From: a virus
DNA: 24,761 nt
Reading direction: 5' to 3' (one strand)
IMG/VR virus record: IMGVR_UViG_3300050821_001216
Coordinates: 1-24,761 of that record
This document shows positions 2,778 to 14,870 of this stretch, in pieces. The notes under the pieces were generated by a model. That model was not told the origin of the DNA. It saw only the letters and a list, made by a program, of their open reading frames with translations, and made no database searches. A program made the translations under genes and the position numbers. The stretch's first letter is position 1. Every line of letters begins with the position of its first letter.

Positions 2778-5680
2778 TGCCTTGCTCCCTTCGCGAACTC
2801 GGGATGGGCGGGGTTCACCGTGAAACAGACCGACTTGGCCGTCTCGTATTTAGTGCCCTTGCCGAGTGGAAATTTGTATTCGATGTCGGTGACGACACCC
2901 ATCCGCGCGAGGTCGGTCAGCACGCGCATGCCGTTCTTGTGATGCTGCGAGCACCACAGCCGGAACGCGTCCTTGCGGATGTAGATGATCGGCCGCTTGC
3001 GGTCGTGGTGGGCAACGATCGCGCCGTGGACCTCACGCAGCGGCTGGTCGTTGAGGTTACCCTCGACGTGATCTCCCTGGACGACAATGGTCGCCCCAGA
3101 CTTATCCGCCAGGAACGCCGACAAGACGGCGGCCGGCCCGCTCTCTGTCTCCACACCCTTGACTGTCCCGCGCATGTCGTTGAGCTGCTCGCCGTAGGCC
3201 CAGGCGCGCACCGGCTCGACGCGGAACGGCAGTAGGCTCCACTCATACGCCAGTTCACCTGCGATCAGCGCGGCGACGTCGGCGGCGCTCCAGTAGCGTT
3301 CAGGCGGCGCGAGTCCCCAGCGCGCGTCCAGCTCGGCCACCGTGCGGCGCACCCGGTCGTCGATCGCCTCGCGGTCCATCAAGTATCGCTTCAAGAACTC
3401 GGGCCCGATGTGGCCATAGACCTTGTTGTGGATCTGATGGAGGAACTCGTTGGCCTCGGCTGCGCTGCCCTCTACCGCCGGGAAGACGATCTCGTAGACG
3501 CGCATGTCACCGGCAGTCCCCGCACGGTTCTCGATCTGCAAGAGGTCGTGCAGCGAAGAGTTGGCGGAGCACAGCAGCATGTTCGAACGCCTGCCGCCTC
3601 TAATCGGTTTCGGCGTGCCGTCAGGGTTGAGGCGAACTCGCTGCTGCTCCTGGGTGGCCCCGAAGACAAACTTCTGCGCCGCCTTAGGCTCAATCATGGT
3701 GATCTCGTCCATGCACGCCGGTAGCTGGCAGAGACTGTGGACCCGGTGCAGCCGCGCCAGTTGCGTCATCCCAGTCTCGGTGCCGTTCATGACGTAGTCC
3801 TTGGGCCGACCCCACAGGCTGGCGGCGGCGTAGAGCGCGCTCGACTTCGACCCGCCCGACTTACCGCTGGCGTTAATCACCACACCGGGTTGGTTCGTGG
3901 CATGGAAGAGGATCGACCCTAGGCCGCACATGATGATGAACTGGTGCCTGAGGTACTGCGGTTTGTCGTAGAACCTCAGGACCTCTACCTGCTCCTCTAG
4001 TGTGCCCTTCTTGGTGACGTAGCCCACCTCCTGCACTGCTGAGGCACTGAGCCTACAGGGTGTCGAGGTTCCGTCAGCCTTGACTACCTCGGTCGGCAGG
4101 ATGAACGCGGCCTTATCCGCGTCGACCCAGCCAAGATGGTCGAACTGTTTGTTCGCCGCCTTGGCCTCCTGCAGCTGCTTCATGTAATAGAACATCATCT
4201 CCTGGACCTTCCTGAAGGAGTTGGGGGCGATATACACGCCGCGATTGGTTAGAGTGGCATGCAGCTGCTTGGAGTCCTGCAAGACATTGGCCGGGACCTT
4301 GATCATCGTCTGACTGCGCTTGGGTATCCGCACCGCCCATGTGCCGAAGGCGGTTTCAAGATCAGTGTTCTCGCAGTCATCGACCGGGAACATGTCGTAG
4401 TCTACGATCAGCTCCTCTTCCTCGACCTCCTGCTTAGTCTCCTTATCCTTCACGATGACCTTCTTGTAGATCTTACCGTGCTTGCGGAACCAAGGTCTGG
4501 GGGGCTCGACCGCCGGCTCGGTGTCAGGCTGCACGACGACACCCGGCGGCGGCTTGGCCTTCCGGTGCGCCAGCGCGATCGTCAGTGGGTTCTTGCCTAG
4601 CTTGGCGAACGGGCAGCGCGCGCAGGCATCACCACCGCAGACCTGGTCCAGCTTGGAGCAAGACGCTGGCTTGCTGTCAGTGCGGTCGTTGTACTGGTCC
4701 AGCTTCGCGTGCGCGGTGTCTGGGTCGGTGTAGTCCGGATGGGTAGTGGCGAACTTCAGATAGGGCTCGTAGCCCTCCTGAGTCTTGGACACCACCCCGC
4801 AGCCGAGGTGGTAGAGGATCGGCTCGCCACGGCCAGCCAGGCCCTGGGCTAGATGCACCCTGGCCTGCTCGCAGACCTCGGTGACCTCGTCTAGGGTTGG
4901 GACTTGTCCGTCCCAGGCGGTATGAAGGTTACCGCGTCTTCGGCGTGCTGTTGACTGTGGGTATCGAACTTCATCAGGGATGGTATCATCGCCGAGAAGT
5001 TCCGTAAGAATATCGAGGAACGCCTGCGTTCCCGTCGTAGCGCCTGTCTGTACTGCCACGCACGGGCGAGGAGGGTGTCCCGGCTTGTGGTTGAGTGTCC
5101 CAACGACTCGAAGGACAGAGGACTGATCCGTCGTGCGCGCCGGGTCGGCACGAAGGCGAACTCGTCGAGCCACATGGTGGAGGACGGCAGCGTGTGACCG
5201 CCAAACAGTAGAATGTAGGGGTTCAGTAAGGGGCCAATAAACGTGGTATCCACCGCCTGAACTCGTGACGAGGGGGTCGGGGAGTCCGGTCCGAAAGAGG
5301 AAAACTTCCAATCCATCTAAAGCCTCCTGTCTGGTTTCATACTTGGGAGTAGTGGGCGTGCTCTCGCCGACGTCAAGGTCGAAAAAGAACGCGCGGCTTT
5401 CGAGCATGTTGTCATGCTCACGGTAGTAGCGCCTCGGGCCGTCGCCCCTGAAGTTCAGTTTGCCGTCAGTGTCCTCGCGATACGGTTGTTTGGTCGTGTG
5501 TACCGCAAAGAATAAGTTTTCATCTTTGTACTTCCTGGTGACCGCCACCGCCTCTTCGATCGACTTGCATGGGATGTGCGCCCACGCAGGCTTCTTCATG
5601 TCGGCGGTTTGAAACGGCTTCGCGATGCAGTAATTTCCGCTGGCAGGCCACACTGCTTTGAAAAATTCGAGGGTGTCCAC
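2774..5680 (-). CDS. Primase-helicase fusion (AEP primase plus DUF927-like ATPase)
   Basis: A 968-residue protein likely to prime and unwind phage DNA. The N-terminal third is an archaeo-eukaryotic-type primase: AFFFDLD near residues 97-103 (metal DxD), SSGGGYHVYW near 140-149, and TTDQSSVLRVVGTLNHK near 183-199. Four cysteines at 341, 348, 353 and 356 (CSKLDQVC, CARC) probably bind zinc or an Fe-S cluster. The C-terminal half has an ATPase: Walker A GKSGGSKSS near 606 and Walker B LPACMDEI near 653-660, in a context like DUF927/phage helicases. The GTG at 5680 is chosen because no other start precedes the conserved N-terminus; its ribosome-binding site is poor. A terminator-like hairpin lies just upstream. 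The architecture is well supported; exact polarity and priming activity are inferred. Confidence 0.88.
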   Translation of the reverse strand: MDTLEFFKAVWPASGNYCIAKPFQTADMKKPAWAHIPCKSIEEAVAVTRKYKDENLFFAVHTTKQPYREDTDGKLNFRGDGPRRYYREHDNMLESRAFFFDLDVGESTPTTPKYETRQEALDGLEVFLFRTGLPDPLVTSSGGGYHVYWPLTEPLHSTVWRSHAAVLHHVARRVRLRADPARTTDQSSVLRVVGTLNHKPGHPPRPCVAVQTGATTGTQAFLDILTELLGDDTIPDEVRYPQSTARRRRGNLHTAWDGQVPTLDEVTEVCEQARVHLAQGLAGRGEPILYHLGCGVVSKTQEGYEPYLKFATTHPDYTDPDTAHAKLDQYNDRTDSKPASCSKLDQVCGGDACARCPFAKLGKNPLTIALAHRKAKPPPGVVVQPDTEPAVEPPRPWFRKHGKIYKKVIVKDKETKQEVEEEELIVDYDMFPVDDCENTDLETAFGTWAVRIPKRSQTMIKVPANVLQDSKQLHATLTNRGVYIAPNSFRKVQEMMFYYMKQLQEAKAANKQFDHLGWVDADKAAFILPTEVVKADGTSTPCRLSASAVQEVGYVTKKGTLEEQVEVLRFYDKPQYLRHQFIIMCGLGSILFHATNQPGVVINASGKSGGSKSSALYAAASLWGRPKDYVMNGTETGMTQLARLHRVHSLCQLPACMDEITMIEPKAAQKFVFGATQEQQRVRLNPDGTPKPIRGGRRSNMLLCSANSSLHDLLQIENRAGTAGDMRVYEIVFPAVEGSAAEANEFLHQIHNKVYGHIGPEFLKRYLMDREAIDDRVRRTVAELDARWGLAPPERYWSAADVAALIAGELAYEWSLLPFRVEPVRAWAYGEQLNDMRGTVKGVETESGPAAVLSAFLADKSGATIVVQGDHVEGNLNDQPLREVHGAIVAHHDRKRPIIYIRKDAFRLWCSQHHKNGMRVLTDLARMGVVTDIEYKFPLGKGTKYETAKSVCFTVNPAHPEFAKGARQ

Positions 5681-5758: not shown

Positions 5759-7150
5759 CTAGTCCCAGGCAGGCAAAGCGGCGGCGAGTGCGGCCGGGAT
5801 CTCGACTGGACCACCGAGCGATGCTGTAGTGACCGGCTCCTCAGGCAGAAGAGCCTTCAGTGCGGCCATGTTAACGCTTGGCATCATGAGGGGGTTTAAG
5901 TCGGCCGCGACCTCCTGAACGGTGGCCTGAGTAGGCGGAGCCTTAGCTGCTGCTTCAGCCGCGCGCGCGGCGTCCATCTCAGCCTTGGTCCGACGTGTGC
6001 GCTTCTTCTCACGTTCCTCAGCCGTGACAGGGATGTCGAGTTCGACCGTGGGCGCAGGCGGGTTATGGAACCGCCCAGCAACAGCAGGAACGACTCGATC
6101 ACCAACGATCGGCCCATCGTCGAACCCACCCTCCTCCGCTTCGAGCGCGGCAAGCGCGGCCTTGGCGTCGGCGATCTTCTTGGCTTTGGCTGCTGCAGCG
6201 TCGGCAGCGGCCTTGGCTTCAGCAGCAGCCGCAGCGTGCTTAGCGGCCTCAGCCTCTTCCGCGACGCGCAGCTTCTGCTCTGCTTCAAACGCGTGCAGCT
6301 CGGCCAACGGATCGTGCTGAGGTGCGGTCTGAGCTGGCTCCTCATCCTTCGGCAGCGGCTTGCCTTGCGGCTTGGGGGCCGGGTTGAAACCGGCGAGAAG
6401 CTTCTGCACCTCTTCCGACTTCGATCGAGCGAGGACCTTGTCGAACTCTTCCTCCTCCAGGAACTTGGCCAGCTTGAACTGCACCTTCGGCCAGTTCGTG
6501 TTGGCGAAGCGCATCTGAGTGACGACTGCGCCAGAGTGATCCAGCCCGTTGGCCCTCAAGAACTCGACGTAGTTCTTCCACGCGTACCAGCCGTTGGCGA
6601 CCGCTTCGTCATCCTTGGCATCCCAGTCGGACGTGACCGCCAGCTTCATCCTCATGGCCGGGTAGTCGAGGTTCTTCTCGGGGATGACCACCAGGATACG
6701 GTTCTGGCCGCAGGCGACCATCTCCTTGCCGTCCTTGACCAACGACCCCTTGAACGACATCGGGCAGGTCTCGCACGTCGCGCCTTGCGGGTTCTCCACA
6801 GAGGCATGTGGCTTCTTGCCGTCAGGTGACCAGCAGTCAGGCTGGCGACCCTGGCCGGTCCAGTTGCCCTCGTAGTAGGCGCGCTCCTTGACCTGGTTCC
6901 AGTCGACCACGACGACGCGCAGGATCTGCACGTTCTCGAGTTCCCCGGTGTCAGGGTCAGGACGCGTCACCGGCTTGCTCTCGCCGTTGATGTGCATCTC
7001 CCAGATCTTCTTAGCGAACGTGATCGAGTTGGTCGTGTTCTTGTCAGGGATGTTGCCGCCGCCAGCGGCCTTGATCCGAGCGGCGATGTGCGCGGGGACT
7101 GCGAAGGACAGACCCTTGGTTCCCGCCTGTGCTGCGACTTCGTTACCCAT
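5759..7150 (-). CDS. Phage replication-associated Cys-motif protein, candidate ssDNA-binding protein
   Basis: A protein of 463 residues. The first about 270 look folded and contain C106, C126, C129 and C147 (DCWSPDG, CETCP, ACGQN), a likely zinc site. The rest is low-complexity Ala/Glu/Lys-rich, including a long AEAKAAADAAAAKAKK helix, ending in an acidic or hydrophobic tail. Comparable Cys-motif proteins beside phage primases are often suspected to bind ssDNA, but no defining signature is visible. The ATG at 7150 shares its A with the upstream TGA (TGATG) and has GGAG upstream. The next gene is the primase-helicase, supporting a role at the fork. Confidence 0.6.
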   Translation of the reverse strand: MGNEVAAQAGTKGLSFAVPAHIAARIKAAGGGNIPDKNTTNSITFAKKIWEMHINGESKPVTRPDPDTGELENVQILRVVVVDWNQVKERAYYEGNWTGQGRQPDCWSPDGKKPHASVENPQGATCETCPMSFKGSLVKDGKEMVACGQNRILVVIPEKNLDYPAMRMKLAVTSDWDAKDDEAVANGWYAWKNYVEFLRANGLDHSGAVVTQMRFANTNWPKVQFKLAKFLEEEEFDKVLARSKSEEVQKLLAGFNPAPKPQGKPLPKDEEPAQTAPQHDPLAELHAFEAEQKLRVAEEAEAAKHAAAAAEAKAAADAAAAKAKKIADAKAALAALEAEEGGFDDGPIVGDRVVPAVAGRFHNPPAPTVELDIPVTAEEREKKRTRRTKAEMDAARAAEAAAKAPPTQATVQEVAADLNPLMMPSVNMAALKALLPEEPVTTASLGGPVEIPAALAAALPAWD

Positions 7151-12343: not shown

Positions 12344-12550
12344 TTAGATCTCAATCATCCCTTCAAACCGGCCGACGACTCGCTCGTAGCCCAGCTCCTT
12401 GAAGCGCGGCGGGTCATAAGGCTCAGTGACCTTCCCCAGCCTGCCCTGCAGTGTAGCGAGTTTCGTCTCCGGATCATAGCCCACGATGCGATAAACGAGG
12501 CCGTTGCGGCGGCAGCGCAGGTGGACGATGTTGGCGTCAGTGTCGGTCAT
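12344..12550 (-). CDS. Small hypothetical beta-rich protein
   Basis: A 68-residue protein (NIVHLRCRRNGLVYRIVGYD then TKLATLQGRLGKV) suggesting a small beta-barrel-like fold. No family recognised. The ATG overlaps the previous stop as ATGA. Confidence 0.6.
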   Translation of the reverse strand: MTDTDANIVHLRCRRNGLVYRIVGYDPETKLATLQGRLGKVTEPYDPPRFKELGYERVVGRFEGMIEI

Positions 12551-12717
12551 GCTTCAGCCTCGTCGTCATCTTCCCCGGCCCACCCCATTGAGCGCAGCTC
12601 GCCCTCAACGATGCGTCTGCTCTCAATGAGATTTGCACCTTGACTTGAGCCGAAGCCCCACGCCTCGGCCAGATCAAGCAAGGTGTTCCAGGTGATGATC
12701 AAATTCTCTCTGGTCAC
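12547..12717 (-). CDS. Small acidic hypothetical protein
   Basis: A 56-residue protein beginning MTRENLIITWNTLLDLAEAW and ending in an acidic GEDDDEAEA tail. It starts at a GTG overlapping the polymerase stop (GTGA) and ends overlapping the next ATG (ATGA). The double overlap supports a real cistron. No family recognised. Confidence 0.6.
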   Translation of the reverse strand: MTRENLIITWNTLLDLAEAWGFGSSQGANLIESRRIVEGELRSMGWAGEDDDEAEA

Positions 12718-13577
12718 AACTTCACCTCTTTCAGCGCGCCCCAGGACTTACCCATCTTGCAATCCCAGTTCAGCGGGATCGGCGGGGTGAAGCCCCAGGC
12801 TTCAGTGTACGGCAGGTTGTCCAACAGGTGCTTACCCCTGACGCAGAACTCAGTGACGTGCCGGTCAGGCACCTCGCTATATATTCCATCATGCAGGTCA
12901 ATCAAGAGGCGAGCCCCGAACTCAGTGTATAAATTTCCCAAGGCTCGGATGGCCAGATATTTTTGCTCGCCTCCGGTGCCCTGGATCGTGTAGTTGATGG
13001 CCGTCGAGCCCATCTGCCAGCCGTACCGCTCCCAGTCCCCCACCACCTGAACTCGGCGGCCGGCGAGTGTCTCTGCATAGCCGCACTGCTTCACCTTATC
13101 GATCGCACTCTTCCAGTACCGCGGCACTCCAGGGTAGGACCGCATGTAGACGAACCGGGTGTGTTCAGCCTGCGGGAGAGTCATCAATATGCCTCGGTCG
13201 ACACGTGTGCGCGTCATGAAGGTCTTGGCGCTCGTGCGGTACTGAAGGGACAGGTTGGCCACCTTCCCCGCCATCCTGATACGCTTGGCGTCTGCGTTGC
13301 CTTCAGCCGCCTGGCGGATCAGCTCCCTGTATTCGAACATGGTGTCGATCCTCGAGCCCATGAAGCTGTGCGGATCTTCGCCTGGCTTGCACAGCTCCAG
13401 CATAGTGTGATCCCCGCTGGCCACGGCCATCCAGCGAAACTCCTGCCCAGCCGCGTCAAATTCAACGATGCTGTAGTCAGGCCTCGAGATCACGAGGCTG
13501 CGGTACTCGGGCCCGCTCTTCATTTGGTGAAGAGCGAAGCCGGTCTGGAAGTCAGTGGTCTTACGAGCGGTGGCCAT
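12714..13577 (-). CDS. DNA polymerase family A, C-terminal palm/fingers half of a split polymerase
   Basis: A protein of 287 residues carrying the catalytic palm and fingers. Motif A is PDYSIVEFDAAGQEFRWMA (D34 equals the first catalytic Asp; E39 the following Glu). Motif B is RMAGKVANLSLQYR, with R101, K105 and Y113 at the expected spacing and Leu109 at the place of E. coli Phe762. Motif C is IDLHDGIYSEV, with the second catalytic Asp at 230 and Gly in place of the usual Glu. It lacks the exonuclease and thumb, which are encoded by the gene starting at 14870 in the same frame. A GCGTAATGG junction places its ATG on the stop of the small inserted gene. The two polymerase parts probably assemble; that is inferred. 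Confidence 0.9.
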   Translation of the reverse strand: MATARKTTDFQTGFALHQMKSGPEYRSLVISRPDYSIVEFDAAGQEFRWMAVASGDHTMLELCKPGEDPHSFMGSRIDTMFEYRELIRQAAEGNADAKRIRMAGKVANLSLQYRTSAKTFMTRTRVDRGILMTLPQAEHTRFVYMRSYPGVPRYWKSAIDKVKQCGYAETLAGRRVQVVGDWERYGWQMGSTAINYTIQGTGGEQKYLAIRALGNLYTEFGARLLIDLHDGIYSEVPDRHVTEFCVRGKHLLDNLPYTEAWGFTPPIPLNWDCKMGKSWGALKEVKL

Positions 13578-13783
13578 TACGCGAGATCATGTTTCTCAGC
13601 GAGCCAGTCGGGGACCGTGACTCGTATTATTTGGTTCCTACGGTATTCTTTCTCGGGGAAATCTATTTGTGATTTCGGCAGCCAGAATAAAGAAGCATCG
13701 CCATCAGTTCTAACTGCAAGTCCCTTATCCGTCTCCGACACATACATAAGGTCGTAGTCCGCCACATTAGATTTATTACTCAT
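13577..13783 (-). CDS. Small gene inserted between the two DNA polymerase halves
   Basis: A 68-residue protein, MSNKSNVADYDLMYVSETDK at the N-terminus, then SLFWLPKSQIDF and VTVPDWLAEKHDLA. Similar small proteins with a WLPKSQI plus VPxWLAEKKGL pattern occur as stand-alone phage genes to my recollection, but function is not known to me. The ATG at 13783 (TTG at 13786 also possible) has AGAGGA about 9 bases upstream, inside the end of the upstream half. Its stop overlaps the downstream start (TAATG). Base composition is clearly richer in A+T than the polymerase sequence on both sides, suggesting recent transfer. It is in a different frame from both halves. Confidence 0.75.
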   Translation of the reverse strand: MSNKSNVADYDLMYVSETDKGLAVRTDGDASLFWLPKSQIDFPEKEYRRNQIIRVTVPDWLAEKHDLA

Positions 13784-14870
13784 CAACCTGGTTCCTCTTC
13801 GTCTGCTTTGAACTGTAGGTCATGCGCCCGGTGTATGTGCCGAACACGATGGCCTCCGGGTAGGCGCGGCCGGTGCCGTTGTAGCGGGCCGCGATCATCG
13901 GCTTCTCGCAAAACTTCACGACGTTGTTGAGCGCCTCGCGGTACTCGCGCAGTTCCCGCGCGCGCGGGTCCTTGAACGCTAGTTCGAACAGGGTCTCCTT
14001 GTCGGTCGAGCGGGTCTGCGTGCCCTTCTTGTTGGGCGGGTTCATCTTGTGGACCGGCAGTCCCCAGTCGTCGAACAGCAGCTTCTCCATCTGCTGCGGC
14101 GAGCGGACGATCTTCTCGGTGACGCCGTACGGCGCGAGGCTCGCCAACCTGGCCGCGGCGATCTCCGCCTGCCGGATGGCCACGTCCTGGGCCAGGATCG
14201 TATCGATCAGGAGGCCCTCCACGTTGGCCTCGGCCACGTGCGGGAGGCAGTCGGCCTCGATCATAGCTGCCTGCCGCTGGCGAGGCTCCAGCTTCTTCCA
14301 GAGGGCCTTGCAGCCCATCAGGGTGAACGCACAGTCTTTGATGTTGTACTCGTGCAGCCTGGCGCGCACCGCTGGGTCGGGATCGTGGAAGTCGATCTCA
14401 GCCTCATAGCCCGCGTGCATCGGCAGGAACTGCTTGACGAAGGCCTTGAGCCCATAGGACCGCCGCGGGCCGTCATCGTACTCGGGCTCGATCTCAAGAT
14501 GCCGCCACAGCAGCATCCCGTCGCCCCACTTGATCTCACGCACCAGCTGGGGGTTGATGCCGTAGGCGAGGATCACCGAGATGTCGAACTTAACGTTCCA
14601 GCCCCACAGCCGGCGCTTGCCAGCGTGAGCCCACTCGAGCATCGCCTCGATCAAATTTCTCGTGAGGTCTTGATCCGGCCGCTCGAGCGGGTAAAGTAAG
14701 CCGCCGCCGTGCATGAGCTTGCCGGCATCTGGCCACAACCAGACCAAGGAGGTACCCCAGGCTCCCCCCTGGGGTATTCTCCAAGGTTGCAGCGCGTGTT
14801 CCGGCTTAGTCCCACTCGTTTCGAAGTCGAACGACGCAACATGTGCGTCGTCCCAGTCCCAATGAGGCAT
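13776..14870 (-). CDS. DNA polymerase family A, N-terminal exonuclease/thumb half of a split polymerase
   Basis: A protein of 364 residues. The 3'-5' proofreading exonuclease is intact: D15 and E17 in ASFDFETSG (Exo I), GWNVKFDISVI (Exo II) and YNIKDC (Exo III). The middle carries thumb-like sequence, ending in TGRMTYSSKQ, the conserved block that in uninterrupted polymerases directly precedes palm motif A. After SSKQ the protein runs for only TKRNQVDE and stops. The continuation (KTTDFQTGFALHQMKSG) is found at the start of the gene at 13577, in the same frame. Nothing conserved appears lost. The ATG at 14870 follows a 198-bp leader full of hairpins. Confidence 0.9.
   Translation of the reverse strand: MPHWDWDDAHVASFDFETSGTKPEHALQPWRIPQGGAWGTSLVWLWPDAGKLMHGGGLLYPLERPDQDLTRNLIEAMLEWAHAGKRRLWGWNVKFDISVILAYGINPQLVREIKWGDGMLLWRHLEIEPEYDDGPRRSYGLKAFVKQFLPMHAGYEAEIDFHDPDPAVRARLHEYNIKDCAFTLMGCKALWKKLEPRQRQAAMIEADCLPHVAEANVEGLLIDTILAQDVAIRQAEIAAARLASLAPYGVTEKIVRSPQQMEKLLFDDWGLPVHKMNPPNKKGTQTRSTDKETLFELAFKDPRARELREYREALNNVVKFCEKPMIAARYNGTGRAYPEAIVFGTYTGRMTYSSKQTKRNQVDE

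Follow-up and report, generated by a model that had tools for sequence, protein, structure and literature searches.

In the OM43 phages MEP401 and MEP402 (Zobellviridae), the family A DNA polymerase (PolA) is encoded by two genes located around a small ORF, a split that is also present in most group I relatives of these phages and for which an intron was suspected by the authors (PMC10580990). In Aeromonas phages 25 and 44RR, the family B polymerase is split as gp43A/gp43B, and the 43A and 43B proteins of phage 25 co-purify with polymerase activity (PMC2988022). Furthermore, the ribonucleotide reductase NrdA of phage Aeh1 is split by mobE and is fully active (PMC2988022). Split polymerases are not mentioned in the virioplankton PolA paper PMC6302109.

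A split PolA is encoded on the minus strand of the stretch of DNA analysed here (24,761 nucleotides of an uncultured phage, IMG/VR record IMGVR_UViG_3300050821_001216, hereafter called the window). Its layout is of the MEP401 kind: a gene for the exonuclease and the N-terminal part of PolA, a small unrelated gene and a gene for the C-terminal part of PolA are adjacent on one strand. However, MEP401 and MEP402 belong to another polymerase clade, their 77-aa cargo is unrelated to that of the window, and their break lies just before motif A (N-terminal part ending in FLSRYGE, C-terminal part starting with MILNADAKALEW), about 25 residues beyond that of the window, which falls after SSKQ and before QTGFALHQ and hence not immediately before motif A. 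The gp43A/gp43B pair resembles the window in being a replicative polymerase in two chains, but it is of family B and its split is tied to an endonuclease gene or an untranslated spacer, not to a small cargo gene. The nrdA gene of Aeh1 is likewise a gene for an essential enzyme that is split by an inserted gene, with a product that is still functional, but the enzyme is a ribonucleotide reductase and the inserted gene encodes an HNH homing endonuclease.

Anatomy of the split locus

An earlier note, made from the sequence alone, had described a family A polymerase split by a small gene, and this split is real: three touching genes are encoded on the minus strand, between which the Pfam domain DNA_pol_A (PF00476; 381 positions) is divided, positions 29-124 being matched by the N-half and positions 136-380 by the C-half, which places both in family A. 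The N-half (364 aa; 13776..14870; PHROG_17, E=4.6e-25) comprises the 3'-5' exonuclease, the thumb and the first part of the palm, contains the TGR motif (13824..13832), which matches the TGR of the Klenow fragment in alignments, and ends in TGRMTYSSKQTKRNQVDE. The C-half (287 aa; 12714..13577; PHROG_17, E=1.2e-36) comprises the palm and fingers with, according to the alignment, motif A (VEFDAAGQEFRWMA; 13425..13466) including the invariant Asp 41 of the C-half, motif B (RMAGKVANLSLQYR; 13236..13277) and the His-Asp of motif C (LIDLHDGIY; 12888..12893). All motifs are thus kept in the two halves, which can be aligned with intact relatives over their full length. Between the halves, the polymerase frame is riddled with stops (TAA TAA ATC TAA ...), and recoding or readthrough was rejected on this ground.

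The inserted gene, referred to here as P0002 (68 aa; ATG start; 13577..13783, minus strand), overlaps the stop of the N-half by 8 nt (ATGAGTAA; 13776..13783), an overlap that had previously been overlooked, and shares one base with the start of the C-half in TAATG (13575..13579), as had been claimed. It has its own putative ribosome-binding site, a Shine-Dalgarno-like GAAGAGGA (-6.5 kcal/mol), and is indeed richer in A+T than its flanks, with a G+C content of 45.4% compared to 63.1% in the N-half and 59.5% in the C-half. The start of the C-half is preceded by a poor Shine-Dalgarno-like site (-2.7 kcal/mol), consistent with a C-half whose translation is coupled through the insert. Stop-start coupling signals are found as TAATG in the window and in OK172329 and as TGATG in the relative L020. 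Both halves are in one frame in the window, as the earlier note had observed, but this means little, since the halves are in different frames in the relative L030 and in MEP401.

Another small gene is encoded soon 3' of the C-half (12344-12550, minus strand) and is conserved, a similar gene being the neighbour in L030, L031 and L020; a PHROG search with it gave no match.

The break in relatives and its position in the fold

Scans of IMG/VR with the C-half, the N-half and profiles of both, together with a genome-contig scan and two phage records, yielded 96 distinct polymerases, the window included. One open frame runs across the junction in all but six of them. The intact relatives are 50-57% identical to the window polymerase and carry a linker of about 4 to 28 residues at the junction, for example about 7 residues in TYSSKQ-GKNKGER-QTGFALHQ and 24 residues in L031, the nearest intact relative. 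Since this linker is short and variable, only a variable linker seems to be lost in the window, and the earlier view that nothing essential is missing holds. Among public isolates, the N-half matches just five records (Xanthomonas phage Xp15 and Acinetobacter phages such as Effie), and the polymerase is intact in the two that were examined.

The same break is found in two relatives, so that both the alignment to intact polymerases and the search for the same split in other genomes, which had been proposed as checks, gave a positive result. L030, a 66-kb contig from an independent assembly, branches as sister to the window (tree support 100), is largely collinear with it around the polymerase and encodes polymerase halves that are about 63-71% identical to those of the window; its gap gene (62 aa) is unrelated to the 68-aa gene. 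L020 is broken at the same place and in the same arrangement (an 8-nt overlap, then TGATG), and its gap gene (58 aa) gave a weak zinc-ribbon match. No relatives of P0002 were found in the L030 and L020 records. The three relatives with this break therefore hold three unrelated small genes. Such an exchange of cargo at one break indicates that the halves do not depend on it to stay together, and these sequences indicate that the gap gene is an exchangeable passenger and not a polymerase subunit. The intact L031 branches beside the window and L030 (support 99), which implies that the break of L020 arose independently or that the break was healed in L031. Furthermore, L194 and L197 form a separate branch (support 100), in which the break immediately precedes motif A and the gap holds one to four genes. 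Between the window and L030, the NG86 method gave dN 0.31 and dS 0.82 for the N-half and dN 0.26 and dS 1.22 for the C-half; dS being near saturation, these values are indications of constraint only, and as such both halves look constrained.

The clade profile aligns with the Klenow fragment through the break region. In the AlphaFold2 model of an intact relative, L047 (mean pLDDT 95.7; TM 0.75 versus Klenow), the linker forms a turn between strands 344-345 and 352-353, after TGR and before motif A. The break is thus predicted to sit at the length-variable tip of a beta-hairpin of the intact fold. In the Klenow fragment, the TGR arginine touches the minor groove of the primer-template and the metal ligands are the aspartates of motifs A and C. 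As TGR is located on the N-half and the metal-binding aspartates on the C-half, the anatomy implies that a normal active site would form only if the halves associate.

Other irregularities were observed among the gathered polymerases. Six of those with an open frame (L006, L046, L095, L097, L105 and L178) contain an in-frame insertion of about 320-340 aa between TY and SGR, just upstream of the junction, read as an intein and, in L006, as a LAGLIDADG intein; its presence in L178 and absence from the near-identical L168 suggests a recent gain or loss. These inteins occur in the same gene and at nearly the same spot as the split of the window but, unlike it, lie about 10 residues upstream, in frame, within one open frame. 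An intein, a split intein or a remnant of one was also considered for the window break itself and rejected, the 8 extra residues of the N-half and the 10 extra residues of the C-half having no intein motifs. In-frame insertions are also present in motif B of L020, L021, L026, L099, L100, L103, L134, L155, L166 and L171, and are seen as inteins in L020, where the gene is additionally split, and in L021. In L038, the polymerase frame is broken in the N-half near 4584-4590 (profile position 222-225), by a frameshift or at a further split site. Finally, the frame of L017 shifts by 1 nt at a five-G run with a GTGA overlap (5984-5995), at the same junction as the window break; a real split, a programmed shift and a sequencing indel are all possible, and since the five-G run and the 1-nt shift would fit an indel, L017 was not counted as a cargo-free split.

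Split PolA genes in other phages

Split PolA genes were also scanned for outside this clade, in the MEP401 type and in a type fused to a uracil-DNA-glycosylase (UDG) domain, keeping the best 80 matches of each and removing duplicates. Among these matches, the MEP401 type comprised 52 distinct split loci and 0 intact ones and the UDG-fused type 48 split versus 20 intact loci; many MEP-type loci are close kin, and these counts are not a frequency across all phages. In the split loci of both scans (about 100), the break always falls between the TGR motif and motif A. The view that a family A split is unusual is therefore not upheld, given these loci and the published MEP401/MEP402 case (PMC10580990). 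To this known but barely described kind of split PolA, the window adds a new clade, a new break point and exchangeable cargo.

The gap cargo sorts into 47 clusters. Genes found in the gaps include dUTPase, ribonucleotide reductase (RNR), HNH and DfrB-like ones. In brief, (i) a dUTPase gene is present in the gap of 21 UDG-type loci (L380, L382, L385, L391, L393-L399, L401, L403, L405, L409, L431, L441 and others), (ii) an RNR large-subunit gene and a relative of P0002 are present in the gap of three UDG-type loci (L374/L210, L376 and L435), which probably represent one event, (iii) an HNH match was obtained for the gap of L416, among the cargo genes tested, and (iv) the size of the gap ranges from a split without cargo in Alcaligenes phage QDWS535, through a 184-aa cargo in Vibrio phage VS-ABTNL-3, to 3.6 kb with several genes in ct2os315. 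The UDG-exonuclease-PolA splits, such as L210 and VS-ABTNL-3, resemble the window in having a break between the TGR/NLQNIP region and motif A and cargo genes, and one of their lineages carries a P0002 relative, as the window carries P0002. They differ from it by the extra UDG domain, by a break after NLQNIP and by a larger cargo (dUTPase, RNR). In ctOsX528 (L291, MW202697; Manatee Spring), a gene for a 68-aa DfrB/R67-like dihydrofolate reductase (DHFR) lies between the halves (3782-3988); it scores 89 bits with the NCBIfam model trim_DfrB, under the cut-off of 137.

It is conceivable, although we hold this only tentatively, that the stretch from TGR to motif A is a general gene slot of phage PolA, broken independently in several clades and loaded with exchangeable genes often devoted to dNTP supply (dUTPase, RNR, DHFR), because their coupling to the synthesis of the polymerase would itself benefit the phage.

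The inserted gene and the explanation of the split

P0002 belongs to PHROG_8389 (E=3e-6 over residues 4-66) and has the motifs W-L-P-K-S-Q-I and P-x-W-L-A-E, which correspond to the W-(L/M)-PKSQI core and P-x-W-L-A-E tail of that family. A strict sequence search for P0002 returned no relatives, and a profile search returned 80 in viral contigs. PolA is encoded on the same strand within 5 kb, in the fetched flanks, at 18 of 82 loci of the family, most of which have no linkage to PolA. The PHROG_8389 gene of Pseudomonas phage AN14 lies immediately behind polA, which it overlaps by 4 bp, and members from Yuavirus adjoin polA. The AlphaFold2 model of P0002 (pLDDT 83.5) consists of a small beta sheet and a C-terminal helix, without any significant fold match in the PDB (the top rows, at E>0.1, include EF-P and NusA domains). 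No match to a nuclease family (HNH, GIY-YIG, LAGLIDADG) was detected in the insert, which is thus not recognisable as a homing endonuclease insertion. A GINS-like subunit was also considered for P0002 and rejected, as it relies on one sub-threshold PSF3_N match in a relative and the PDB gave no significant fold match. Our guess is that P0002 is a small accessory of the replication module that landed in the gap.

The locus most likely encodes a two-chain family A polymerase that replicates the phage, derived from an ancestral gene broken at a tolerant loop in which a small unrelated passenger is lodged. An ancestral single gene would have been broken at the length-tolerant hairpin tip between TGR and motif A, where the small gene would then have lodged. 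A single message would serve for the translation of both halves, that of the C-half depending on stop-start coupling via the small gene. The N-half, with the exonuclease, thumb and TGR, and the C-half, with motifs A, B and C, would then form one active enzyme by non-covalent association, and the small protein would be a passenger and not a required subunit. The reassembly of the halves, also expected by the earlier note, and their activity are inferred from the sequences and by analogy; since gp43 of phage 25 and NrdA of Aeh1 are functional although split, reassembly is the best guess, and a probable one.

The earlier note had added that the inserted protein might take part in the enzyme, as an adaptor or processivity subunit joining the halves in three chains. 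Such a role could explain why PHROG_8389 genes abut polA in AN14 and adjoin it in Yuavirus, the 18 linked loci out of 82, the P0002-family members in the gap of three UDG-type splits and the weak PSF3_N (GINS) match of the member from L210 (E=1.6e-4, below the family cut-off). It is nevertheless unlikely, since unrelated genes occupy the same break in L030 and L020, several split polymerases have no gene at all between their halves, the majority of the family is not near PolA, and the three UDG-type cases, which also have an RNR gene in common, seem to go back to a single event. The positions of family members in Yuavirus and in these three gaps still make some link with the polymerase conceivable. 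Even less likely is the production of a full-length polymerase, either by splicing of the insert from the RNA as a group I or other intron or by ribosomal bypass. Group I introns are frequent in phage polA genes and the window halves share one frame, but the insert of about 200 nt is nearly all coding, a start or stop of its own, in a translational overlap, is present in each half, the cargo of related splits can comprise several genes and reach 3.6 kb, and the halves of L030 and MEP401 are in different frames. Moreover, no Rfam match, and thus no group I intron core, was found at the gathering threshold or at E<=5, and the predicted RNA folding is no better than that of shuffled sequences (z 0.33).

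A broken or decaying gene, or an assembly error, with another polymerase doing the work, appears the most improbable reading. The window covers just 24.8 kb of the genome of an uncultured phage, so that a further polymerase could be encoded beyond its ends, and only the record of its sister argues against this. However, the same break in the independent contig L030 speaks against an assembly error, both halves look constrained, and all motifs are kept. No second intact polymerase gene, which the earlier note had named as evidence against its reading, turned up: searches for a further polymerase of family A, B or C (PolA, PolB or Pol III alpha) gave nothing in the window and nothing in the 66-kb L030 record, and the L020 record yielded neither PolB nor Pol III alpha.

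Returning to the two-chain polymerase, split PolA is common in uncultured phages, yet one report of it was found in the literature, and gene callers would list such phages with polymerase fragments or with two polymerases. Designers of split polymerases could take these natural break points as they are, and the exchange of cargo offers small systems in which gene fission and operon building can be tested. For phages of this kind, the locus means that the gene of a replicative family A polymerase can persist when cut within the part for the palm, in a loop that separates two motifs of the active site.
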